Shown: positions 7,610-47,451 of the stretch, piece after piece
Layout of the letters: every line of letters starts with the position of its first letter
Position numbering within the stretch: position 1 is the stretch's first letter
Assembly (NCBI GenBank): GCA_020427395.1
Contig: JAGQON010000004.1
Span: forward strand, 1 to 64,000
Direction of reading: 5' to 3'
DNA from: Phycisphaerales bacterium
GTDB taxonomy: Bacteria; Planctomycetota; Phycisphaerae; Phycisphaerales; UBA1924
Length of the DNA: 64,000 nt
Program-made: the position numbers and the translations under genes
The notes under the pieces: generated by a model
Databases searched by the model: none
Seen by the model: only the letters and a program-made list of their open reading frames with translations
What the model was told of the DNA's origin: nothing

Positions 7610-7838
7610 TTTTGCCGAAGATTCTGTCGGCACTTGGAACCATTCGGAAACCAGTGTCGAACAGTCAGGCAACCCATCTTCGCAGGTCTCGCGAAGGTGT
7701 TGAATATGAAGATCGCTGAGTGTAACCAGGCACGACTCGTGCCAAGGGTCATCGAGCCGAATCGGTTCGTGTCAGCGACCAACCAAGACCCCCACGAGAC
7801 TCGGCGCTTGGCCTTCGGGCTGAGTGCCGGGTTTTTTT
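7610..7838 (+). ncRNA. Candidate structured small RNA (novel)
   Basis: At least five local hairpins can be drawn in a row: 7614-7618/7627-7631 (GCCGA/TCGGC), 7631-7637/7651-7656 (CACTTGG/CCAGTG), 7675-7683/7691-7699 (CATCTTCGC/GCGAAGGTG), 7729-7733/7739-7743 (GGCAC/GTGCC) and 7758-7761/7766-7769. They finish in a 12-bp terminator stem with a TTCG loop and seven T. A TATATT box at 7606-7611 could be the -10 element. No known conserved core of RNase P, tmRNA, SRP or 6S RNA was recognised. It does not lead into a gene on this strand, so it is not a leader. Boundaries are inferred. Confidence 0.45.
7802..7838 (+). terminator. Strong intrinsic terminator with TTCG tetraloop
   Basis: The arms CGGCGCTTGGCC and GGCTGAGTGCCG (three wobble pairs) close on a TTCG loop and are followed by a run of seven T. 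Confidence 0.85.
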
Positions 7839-7883
7839 CTGTCCCTGCCCCACCCGCGCAGGTCCGATACCCGACAATGCAAG

Positions 7884-7915
7884 CCACAAAAAACGCACAC
7901 CCTCGGGTGTGCGTT
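7884..7915 (-). terminator. Intrinsic terminator for copper-binding lipoprotein gene
   Basis: On the minus strand the stem ACGCACACC/GGTGTGCGT is followed by six T, 25-30 nt beyond the stop codon of the lipoprotein gene. Confidence 0.8.
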
Positions 7916-7940
7916 GTGAGTCATGGATGCGCTGACGCGA

Positions 7941-8531
7941 TCAGGGCTCGTCGTGCTCGCCCTCGCCGTGATCATGCCCGCTGTGGTCCATCATGTCGTG
8001 GGCCTGATCTTTCATCTGCTCAAAGTTTTCCACGATCGCGTTCTCAAAGTTGAGCTCGGTCTCGGCGGGCAGCTTGGTGAGCTTGGTGACCTCCCACGCG
8101 GGGCGGTTGCCGCCCCAGTTGACCACGAACTCGAACTCGACCTTGTCACCGACCGCGAACCCATCGAGCGAGACACCCTCGGCAAGGGGGAACGGCATCG
8201 TCATCGAACGCATACCGGCGATGCCGTCAGCGGTGATATTCACGACCCCCTCCGAAGTTTTGAACTCGGGGATCTGCTCGTGATGGATCTGAAGCTCGCT
8301 GCCCGGGACCTCGGGGTTCGGGAGCGTGGCGATCTCACCCCGGATGCCGCTGTAGACATCGGGCGCGCGGTTTTCATCGCCGTGGTCGTGCCCGTCGTGG
8401 TCATGGTGTGCATCGACGCCCGACTGGGGCGCGTTGCTGCTGTTGCTGTTGGCATCGCTGCACCCAACGAGGGCGAGCCCGGCGATGAGCGCAAGGGCGC
8501 TGGGAATCATGCGTGTACGCGTGCTGGTCAT
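7941..8531 (-). CDS. His-rich copper-binding lipoprotein (CusF-like domain)
   Basis: A 196-aa lipoprotein. The N terminus is a lipoprotein signal with lipobox LVGC, giving an extracytoplasmic membrane-anchored product. A His/Asp run follows (DAHHDHDGHDHGDEN), and the C terminus has another (HSGHDHGEGEHDE). The middle, with MRSMTMPFPL and VGDKVEFEF, matches the Cu(I)/Ag(I)-binding CusF-type beta-barrel found in copper-efflux systems, in which the Met residues bind metal. It probably buffers or hands over copper outside the cytoplasmic membrane. The ATG at 8531 has an excellent AGGAGGT ribosome site; the longer frame from 8630 is not needed. No efflux pump is adjacent. Confidence 0.82.
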   Translation of the reverse strand: MTSTRTRMIPSALALIAGLALVGCSDANSNSSNAPQSGVDAHHDHDGHDHGDENRAPDVYSGIRGEIATLPNPEVPGSELQIHHEQIPEFKTSEGVVNITADGIAGMRSMTMPFPLAEGVSLDGFAVGDKVEFEFVVNWGGNRPAWEVTKLTKLPAETELNFENAIVENFEQMKDQAHDMMDHSGHDHGEGEHDEP

Positions 8532-45856: not shown

Positions 45857-46510
45857 GTGCCCGCCCTCGAGCCGGAACAGCCCGACCTCGAACCAGGCGC
45901 GACGCTCGATCACGCGCCGAGCGATTCGTTCATCGACCGCGCCCAGCTTGAGCGTGTCGAGATCATCGAGCCGCTTCGCGCGTTCGCTCGCGACCTCTCG
46001 CTCTCCATGTGCCGCGTCCGCGCCGGCGCGTTCGCGGCAACGACACTCCCGGGTTTGCGCATGGTTGATTGCGAGATTGGGCGTGCCGACTGCTCGGGCG
46101 CGACCTGGATCGACACCCGCATCGTCCGCACCCGCTTCGAGTCCTGCAAGTGCACCGGTCTCGACACACGCGGCGGCACGCTCCGCGATGTCCGCTTCCA
46201 CGAGTGCAAGATGCCCGACGCGTTCATGCAGGAGTGCACGCTGGACCGTGTTTGGTTCGAGACCTGCGACCTGCAGAACATCGATCTGTCTGGATCAACC
46301 CTCGACCGCATTACCCTCCGCGACTGCGATGCCCGGGGCCTGTATCTACTGGGCGCACGCATCACCGCCCTCGACCTGCGGGGCAGCCGCATCGATCACC
46401 TCGCGATCGACACACGCTCAGTATCAAACATCATCATCGACCCGCTGCAGGCCCCCGCGCTCGCCGAGTCGCTCGGCGCACGGGTCATCGATCGCAACGA
46501 AGAGATCTGA
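45857..46510 (+). CDS. Pentapeptide-repeat-like protein
   Basis: A 217-aa protein beginning at GTG, 3 nt after glyA, so likely co-transcribed. From about residue 55 to 195 it shows the pentapeptide pattern A/C-[D/N]-L/F-x-x (for example ADCSGATWIDTRI, CDLQNIDLSGSTL, ARGLYLLGA), which folds as a right-handed square beta-helix. Members sometimes mimic DNA or act as scaffolds; nothing here says which. Its stop codon abuts the first inverted repeat of the nuclease element. Confidence 0.75.
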   Translation: MPALEPEQPDLEPGATLDHAPSDSFIDRAQLERVEIIEPLRAFARDLSLSMCRVRAGAFAATTLPGLRMVDCEIGRADCSGATWIDTRIVRTRFESCKCTGLDTRGGTLRDVRFHECKMPDAFMQECTLDRVWFETCDLQNIDLSGSTLDRITLRDCDARGLYLLGARITALDLRGSRIDHLAIDTRSVSNIIIDPLQAPALAESLGARVIDRNEEI

Positions 46511-46564
46511 CTCCTCCCCCGCACCTGCGGGGGAGGTGGCACGCGCAGCGTGACGGAGGGGGGG
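46511..46564 (+). repeat. REP-like inverted repeat, left copy (A)
   Basis: About 54 bp starting CTCCTCCCCCGC and ending ACGGAGGGGG. It has two internal palindromes (CCTCCCCCGC/GCGGGGGAGG and CACGC/GCGTG). It is near-identical in inverted orientation to 46995-47050 and in direct orientation to 54854-54906. It abuts the pentapeptide stop codon and the nuclease stop codon. Confidence 0.9.
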
Positions 46565-46984
46565 CTAGCGTTCAATCCGTTGCTCACCGAGTTCTCGTAT
46601 GCGCTGATGGGCAGTCGTTCGAATCCGTTCAAGAACCGCTTCTCGATGCTTGAAGACATCCTCAGCCGTGAATCGAAGCACGACCAGCCCGGCCTGTTTC
46701 ATCCATCGATCTCGTTCTCGATCGAGTGTGAGTCGTGAGCCCTGATGCGTCTCACCGTCTATCTCGATGATGAGCCTGGCGGCATGGCAGTAGAAATCCG
46801 CTATGAAGTCGCCCATCGGGGATTGCTTTCGGAAGTGCAAACCAGCAAGCTGTCGCCGCTTGAGGGCATTCCATAGGAAGCGTTCTGGGGGCGAGAGGTC
46901 CCGACGCAGCGACCGCGCTTTCTCATGTGACAAGGGCGTGCCACGAGTCTGTGCGCGAAATGATCTGGGATCAGGCACGCACAC
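46565..46984 (-). CDS. DUF559 PD-(D/E)XK-type endonuclease-like protein
   Basis: A 139-aa protein of the DUF559 family, related to Vsr-type very-short-patch endonucleases. The core motifs are intact: FRKQSPMGDFIADFY, ARLIIEIDGETHQGSR (the D, E-x-D of a PD-(D/E)XK site), DRWMKQAGLVVLRF, ending with helix EAVLERIR. It should be able to cut DNA; the target is unknown. Start is GTG 46984, but a slightly different start is possible. The 3' end touches repeat A and the 5' end lies 10 bp from repeat B, so gene and repeats look like one unit. Confidence 0.85.
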   Translation of the reverse strand: MCVPDPRSFRAQTRGTPLSHEKARSLRRDLSPPERFLWNALKRRQLAGLHFRKQSPMGDFIADFYCHAARLIIEIDGETHQGSRLTLDRERDRWMKQAGLVVLRFTAEDVFKHREAVLERIRTTAHQRIRELGEQRIER

Positions 46985-46994
46985 AGCATACCAG

Positions 46995-47050
46995 AGTCCC
47001 CCTCCGTCACGCTATCGCGTGCCACCTCCCCCGCAAGCGCGGGGGAGGAG
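46995..47050 (-). repeat. REP-like inverted repeat, right copy (B)
   Basis: Reverse complement of copy A with few differences (CGCTT for CACC in the first loop, ATAGC for CAGC in the second). It lies 10 bp upstream of the nuclease start and 7 bp from the stop of the next convergent gene. Confidence 0.9.
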
Positions 47051-47057
47051 AAGCTCA

Positions 47058-47393
47058 TCACGGCTGCGGCAGCGTCCGGCTCGTGAAGTTCTTATCGATC
47101 TTCACCCTGCCCCAGTTGTAGTACCCGAACCCAGTCCGCTCGCCGTCGGGGAACTTGAGGTAGGTCATCGAGCCGTCCGCGTGCACACGCACGATCCGGT
47201 CCGAGAGCCCGACATAATCAACCACCGCTGTCGGATCGGACGGCGAGCTGTGCGGGTCGGGCTGGGCTGCCCCCATGCCGCCGATGACGACGCCGACCAT
47301 CAGCGTGATCGACGAAACCGCCAGCAGACGCCAGCGGGCGTTGGACTTGGAGAGCTGAGAAAAACGATCATTTTGGGTGTTGTGTGTATCCAT
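47058..47393 (-). CDS. Small single-pass membrane protein
   Basis: A 111-aa protein with one hydrophobic helix at about residues 22-42 (LLAVSSITLMVGVVIGGMGA) and a 65-residue extracytoplasmic part (VDYVGLSDRIVRVHADG, KFPDGERTGFGYYNWGR). The aromatic-Gly end is distinctive but unassigned. The ATG at 47393 is used; no good ribosome site is seen. Convergent with the nuclease element. Confidence 0.5.
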   Translation of the reverse strand: MDTHNTQNDRFSQLSKSNARWRLLAVSSITLMVGVVIGGMGAAQPDPHSSPSDPTAVVDYVGLSDRIVRVHADGSMTYLKFPDGERTGFGYYNWGRVKIDKNFTSRTLPQP

Positions 47394-47451
47394 GGCATCA
47401 GTATGACCGATCGATCGCCCGGCGACTGACACAAATCAGTACACTTTGTGC

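Follow-up and report, generated by a model that had tools for sequence, protein, structure and literature searches.

Within the window, the 64,000-nucleotide stretch of DNA analysed here, a gene for a DUF559 nuclease is enclosed by two inverted palindromic repeats (REPs). This 540-bp stretch (46511-47050) is on balance probably a REP-DUF559-inverted REP unit whose nuclease, by cutting its own REPs, sets off their spread. The grounds for this reading were observed: the anatomy of the unit, the recurrent presence of such repeats around DUF559 genes in many phyla, the likeness between the left and right ends of units, a repeat number that is tied to DUF559 within the genus, and sites that are empty in related genomes.

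Anatomy of the unit and its nuclease

The features of the unit and of the genes beside it are given in Table 1. Both REPs follow one plan, in which a first hairpin (hp1, CCTCCCCCGC..GCGGGGGAGG) is joined through a short linker to a small and variable second hairpin (hp2), followed by a GACGGAGGGGG tail, with both tails facing the nuclease gene. The pattern matched twice in the window, against 0.00 matches expected from shuffled sequence, and each REP is predicted to form two hairpins as single-stranded DNA, with stems of 10 bp (hp1) and 5 bp (hp2) and z values of -3.2 to -5.9.

Table 1. Features of the DUF559 unit and its neighbours (positions in the window)
Feature	Position	Strand	Description
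Left REP	46511..46562	+	hp1 46513-46536, TGG link, hp2 46540-46552, GACGGAGGGGG tail toward gene
DUF559 (PF04480) nuclease gene	46565..46978	-	137 aa, GTG start, TAG stop abutting left REP
Right REP, inverted copy	46998..47050	-	hp1 47025-47048, hp2 47008-47021, tail toward gene
Left neighbour, 217-aa protein	45857..46510	+	conserved marker for empty-site search, outside unit
Right neighbour, convergent ORF	47058..47432	-	conserved marker, outside unit

A sequence-only reading of this DNA had described a DUF559 gene enclosed by near-identical, facing copies of a doubly palindromic repeat and set between convergent genes. The enclosure, the paired hairpins of each copy and the convergent neighbours were all confirmed. 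The copies are complementary to each other at 94% of the outer 35 nt and 100% of the inner 16 nt; near-identity holds for their stems, but the loops of hp1 and hp2 are not alike between the left and right copies. The stop codon of the nuclease gene (46565-46567) abuts the left REP, as had been stated, but the start is further from the right REP than the 10 bp given in that reading: the longest nuclease ORF (46565-46984, minus strand) begins 13 bp from it, and the GTG at 46976-46978, the start that agrees with those of relatives, lies 19 bp from it. No target-site duplication was evident at the window site or at the cleanest empty sites found between congeners G015 and G004 (see below), the flanks having diverged.

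The window protein matches PF04480 with an E value of 5.7e-31 (107.1 bits; gathering cut-off 20.6 bits). Among 36 relatives of this nuclease, residues R25, E32, F49, R50, Q52, C64, E72 and D86 are invariant, while D61, D74 and H78 are near-invariant. An AlphaFold (AF2) model of the protein (pLDDT 89.7) has as its best match, among the Foldseek matches listed, NGO0050, a putative endonuclease-like protein of N. gonorrhoeae of solved structure; the second PDB entry among these matches is I-Bth0305I (probability 1.00, TM 0.59/0.80), and Vsr itself is absent from them. The protein thus combines a fold match of the I-Bth0305I type with the conserved acidic residues and histidine of EDxHD/Vsr-like enzymes, and its earlier description as a Vsr-like PD-(D/E)XK nuclease is backed, as regards affinity to Vsr and homing nucleases, by the predicted fold. 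A link between DUF559 and EDxHD has been published (PMC9403480, citing Taylor 2011). The window nuclease and the EDxHD homing nucleases may share descent.

Conservation of the hairpins was followed among 109 strict copies of the repeat. In 106/109 of these, spanning 41 variants, hp2 retains three or more base pairs in its stem, and a GNA triloop occurs in 77 of them on the strand that reads hp1-hp2-tail and in 0 on the other strand. DNA hairpins with GNA loops, e.g. GCGAAGC, are unusually stable; the term GNA-loop hairpin occurs, for example, in PMC4686876. The strand-biased GNA loops and the kept hp2 stems fit with recognition of a folded single strand, and the DUF559 protein is probably an endonuclease recognising the hairpins of its own REP.

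Association of DUF559 genes with palindromic repeats

The pairing of DUF559 genes with REPs is general across phyla. Inverted palindromic repeats, defined as an inverted repeat with a score of at least 16 between the two flanks of a gene, bracket 43/51 DUF559 genes versus 1/132 control ORFs from the same loci (Fisher 1.8e-32, with independence slightly overstated by orthologues among the 51 genes, three at radA and two at fahA). Relatives supplied part of the 51 genes; the others came from one Chloroflexi contig, from E. coli and from records of other phyla in a plasmid collection. Bracketed genes were seen in planctomycete-type relatives, Sphingobium, Deinococcus, cyanobacteria, Sinorhizobium, Azospirillum and Chloroflexi; the unbracketed cases include contig ends, N runs, E. 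coli ycjD and N. gonorrhoeae. The N. gonorrhoeae gene (L180) has repeats on both sides in direct orientation. A repeat that is common with no enrichment around DUF559 genes had been named as an outcome that would speak against the unit; the repeat is dispersed (34 hp1 copies in this genome) yet enriched at these genes, as the above counts show.

DUF559 matches were found in 28/61 genomes (this one and 60 relatives), some of them being domains of very long proteins, and a scan of genome contigs yielded a single relative. The second DUF559 gene of this genome (G000 C161:22159-22470, L098) has complete REP pairs on either side, which belong to a different subfamily (CCTTCCCCGCCCCGCGGGGAAGG). On a plasmid of Sphingomonas parapaucimobilis (L181), a DUF559 gene is situated between two transhydrogenase subunit genes, interrupting a conserved operon. 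Several DUF559 units and REPs in short contigs of G001, G009, G014 and G021 sit at contig ends or next to N runs, so copies in these draft assemblies are probably undercounted.

The repeat itself varies: within the genus it takes the form hp1+hp2+GGAGGGG, whereas rhizobia and the order's other families have CCCTCTCCC..GGGTGAGGG and cyanobacteria have CCCCC..GGGGGCTAGGGGG. Within a unit, the left and right ends are more alike than ends compared between different units of that genome (median similarity 29.0 versus 19.5, p 2e-6). At a coarse level REP class tracks nuclease clade, being clustered on a tree of 45 nucleases (label A, 9 changes versus 14.7 when shuffled). Genomes G001 and G005 carry both REP classes, and on the tree their nucleases follow REP class rather than host; those with CCCTCTCCC-type REPs cluster with enzymes of other genera having that REP type (96/89). 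The Mantel correlation between nuclease and repeat was 0.50 (p 0.001), and 0.19 (p 0.09) without the two units of the other class. The correlation inside one REP class thus did not hold up, and it is too weak to establish close cognate specificity between nuclease and repeat.

Several genera have a DUF559 unit in the gap that lies upstream of fahA (L100, L101, L103, L121, L122, L124; L113), and these units differ in REP class and nuclease clade, that of G007 being of a different REP class from those of G001 and G005. The gap is a recurrent insertion site. In the fahA units of G001 and G005, hp1 differs between the species but is identical at both ends of each unit, while the two nucleases are closely related (71% identity), a combination that points to homogenisation of the ends or repeated insertion.

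Distribution of units and repeats between genomes

The left neighbour of the unit was found in 14/21 genomes of the genus, and the unit is absent beside it in 13/13 congeners readable there; presence of the unit at the same site in all relatives, which had also been named as evidence against it, was thus not what was found. A lone hp1 follows directly after the stop codon of the left neighbour in the three nearest congeners (G018, G014 and G009), and the remaining, more distant readable congeners have no hairpin at this site. At radA, the unit is present in G009 and G014, G018 has a lone hp1 and G000 has nothing; in G015, a unit from the same nuclease clade adjoins radA. Nearly all inspected hp1 copies come with hp2 and the tail, a lone hp1 being unusual. 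It may be the scar left after loss of everything between the two palindromes, or the target.

Approximately 0.29 Mb of G015, which has 4 DUF559 genes, was compared with 1.08 Mb of G004, in which no DUF559 was found. The compared G004 DNA lacks single REPs, paired REPs and pairs enclosed by a further, outer repeat that are present in G015, the cleanest differences (inserts 11 and 12) being 166 versus 13 bp and 162 versus 2 bp. Differences in presence among congeners concern gene-free REPs and REP pairs much more often than the unit with the gene, which is thus only one form of the system. The nested pairs lie within an outer inverted repeat TAGGYCGTGTCTGAYGGCTC..GAGCCGTCAGACACGACCTA (L333 ~7719-7946, L339 ~1461-1739 and L340 ~1470-1721), the arms of which were counted 8 times in G015 loci, all beside hp1, and 0 times in G004 loci; the arrangement may be a composite MITE or a hot spot for insertion. 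In Sinorhizobium, a DUF559 gene with REP pairs parts two genes that directly adjoin in Shinella, by gain or loss. Shinella served for this comparison as the 'pSymB' of S. meliloti Ak57 is 3.7 Mb in size and looks like a mislabelled chromosome, so that same-species plasmids gave no empty site. From the sites described we infer that the unit is mobile.

The main rival to this reading is homing into REPs, which is considered unlikely. DUF559 would cut gene-less REPs or hairpins and repair from a REP-flanked copy would bring the gene in, with REPs serving as targets and homology arms and owing their spread to something else. Such a process would suit the lone hp1 in relatives where others hold the unit, at both the window and radA sites, the location of some units between complete REP pairs (L098; Sinorhizobium K101 and C101) and the fact that the closest solved fold outside DUF559, among the matches listed, is that of the homing nuclease I-Bth0305I. 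It sits poorly with the gene-free REP pairs and single REPs at sites that are hairpin-free in the sister genome, which argue that the REPs themselves spread, with the other REP class of the fahA unit in G007, and with the missing hairpin at the window site in more distant congeners.

Repeat number within the genus follows DUF559 better than it does Y1/RAYT transposases. There are 34 hp1 copies in this genome and 190 in G015; congeners with a stand-alone DUF559 have 7-190 and those without have 0-32, or 0-12 when G008 is set apart (61% complete, 32 copies, no stand-alone DUF559 found). The REPs are dispersed singly and as inverted pairs, 117-141 bp apart. Since the counts come from kin genomes of one genus and are non-independent, p values are only indicative for the correlation of repeat number with DUF559 (Spearman 0.81; partial given Y1_Tnp 0.63, p 0.002) and with Y1_Tnp (rho 0.68; partial given DUF559 0.31, p 0.18). 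The latter correlation, the occurrence of Y1_Tnp domains in most genomes of the genus sample and the lack of a gene at most REP copies would be in keeping with DUF559 as a passenger, caught between two REPs that are moved by RAYT/Y1 or another enzyme. This is improbable: the partial correlation with Y1_Tnp is not significant, the repeat occurs in 0/20 loci fetched for Y1_Tnp matches in the genus, G015 with its 190 copies has one Y1 match, located inside a 1440-aa open frame, and a passenger would not be one family across phyla with different REPs. RAYT as the mover was rejected on the 0/20 count.

A further explanation, regarded as very improbable, is that the hairpins are immobile expression or insulation elements (terminators or mRNA stabilisers) of a cellular nuclease of repair or restriction type. 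The location of the window unit directly after a stop codon and between convergent genes, and the lone hairpin kept at this site in three relatives, could be understood in this way, and the DUF559 protein VsrA of Caulobacter has been interpreted as a 5mC mismatch-repair enzyme (PMC12907096). The window hairpins, on the other hand, have no intrinsic-terminator-like site, as they lack a T run, and match no Rfam family; a terminator or known RNA was rejected as a candidate on these results. The dispersed copies, their presence or absence between congeners and the interruption of the transhydrogenase operon on the Sphingomonas plasmid also argue against immobile elements.

Proposed mechanism and comparison with known systems

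In the mechanism favoured here, DUF559 would recognise the hairpins of its own REP, perhaps as a folded single strand or cruciform, and a nick or cut at the REP would lead to single REPs being copied or relocated, and likewise inverted REP pairs (~160 bp, REPIN/MITE-like) and, more rarely, the gene-carrying unit. To our knowledge, PD-(D/E)XK/EDxHD nucleases have no strand-transfer activity, so host repair would have to complete any movement after the DUF559 cut. The action of DUF559 on the REP as the driver of its spread, along with the strand and repair steps, is what we infer from the observations above. DUF559 would then do for these REPs what RAYT (TnpA-REP) does for GTAG-type REPs, by means of an unrelated catalytic fold. 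The chances are about even that DUF559 enzymes serve a second class of REP systems, found across phyla and independent of RAYT, whose REPs they cut and, with the help of host repair, multiply along with REP pairs and their own REP-flanked gene. Activity of DUF559 in cells is at least plausible, as VsrA is needed for a DNA-damage response of Caulobacter when a cytosine methyltransferase is missing (PMC12907096).

No earlier description of a DUF559-REP link was found among 5.39 million open papers, 14 of which mention DUF559, and priority is not certain. Palindromic repeats are among the commonest repeats of bacterial genomes, and for many of them no enzyme is known that moves them, as has been said explicitly of CGTC REPs (PMC3733652). 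DUF559 may supply this enzyme for one large group of such repeats. If it does move another large REP class, a widespread nuclease of 'unknown function' would acquire a role, and enzymes of a class that is not known for transposition would join those that shape genomes.

CGTC-tagged REPs form head-to-head palindrome pairs, have Planctomycetes among their hosts and are described as lacking a transposase of their own (Di Nocera et al. 2013, PMC3733652). They are recognised by a CGTC at one stem end and a CCA-like tail. The DUF559-linked repeats resemble them in being palindromic, in forming head-to-head pairs and in occurring in Planctomycetes, but the tag varies among DUF559-linked copies (CCGTC, CCGCC, CCGAC, CCGTT). 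Membership among CGTC REPs was rejected on this lack of a conserved tag and on the different, direct-orientation repeat that flanks the N. gonorrhoeae DUF559 gene.

The window protein shares its predicted fold with the EDxHD homing nuclease I-Bth0305I. Unlike the genes of such nucleases, its gene is not within an intron, intein or split gene and is bracketed by inverted REPs, and the protein, at 137 aa, has little beyond the catalytic domain. VsrA is similar in its DUF559 domain and Vsr-like fold, but work on it has dealt with mismatch repair, in which it would act as a nuclease connected with 5mC. E. coli YcjD is likewise encoded by a DUF559 gene, found in part of the species only, with a hairpin of the GAGAGGG/GGGTGAGGG type downstream and a long palindrome upstream; its flanks, however, do not form an inverted pair (score 8.5). 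The ycjD gene (L157, E. coli K-12 1351407-1351760) occupies the place of the eefRABC efflux operon of other strains. Its candidacy as a clean strain-level insertion was rejected: the gene is polymorphic, but other strains carry the eef operon in its place.

The system most similar to the DUF559 unit is that of REP-RAYT, REPtrons and REPINs, the analogue put forward in the sequence-only reading, and the analogy was borne out. In both, short palindromic REPs are scattered through the genome, alone or in inverted pairs, REPs flank one or a few enzyme genes, and enzyme and REP class co-vary, the repeat class following the DUF559 enzyme coarsely; TnpA-REP and REP are known to co-evolve (PMC8266576). 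The enzyme here is a DUF559 of PD-(D/E)XK/EDxHD type, in contrast to the HuH/Y1 tyrosine enzymes of REP-RAYT, and as it is not HuH the unit is not a member of that system. Moreover, no conserved GTAG foot was seen in the DUF559-linked repeats, which have two stems or a G-rich tail. In our reading, the DUF559 unit would work like a REP-RAYT system with another enzyme.
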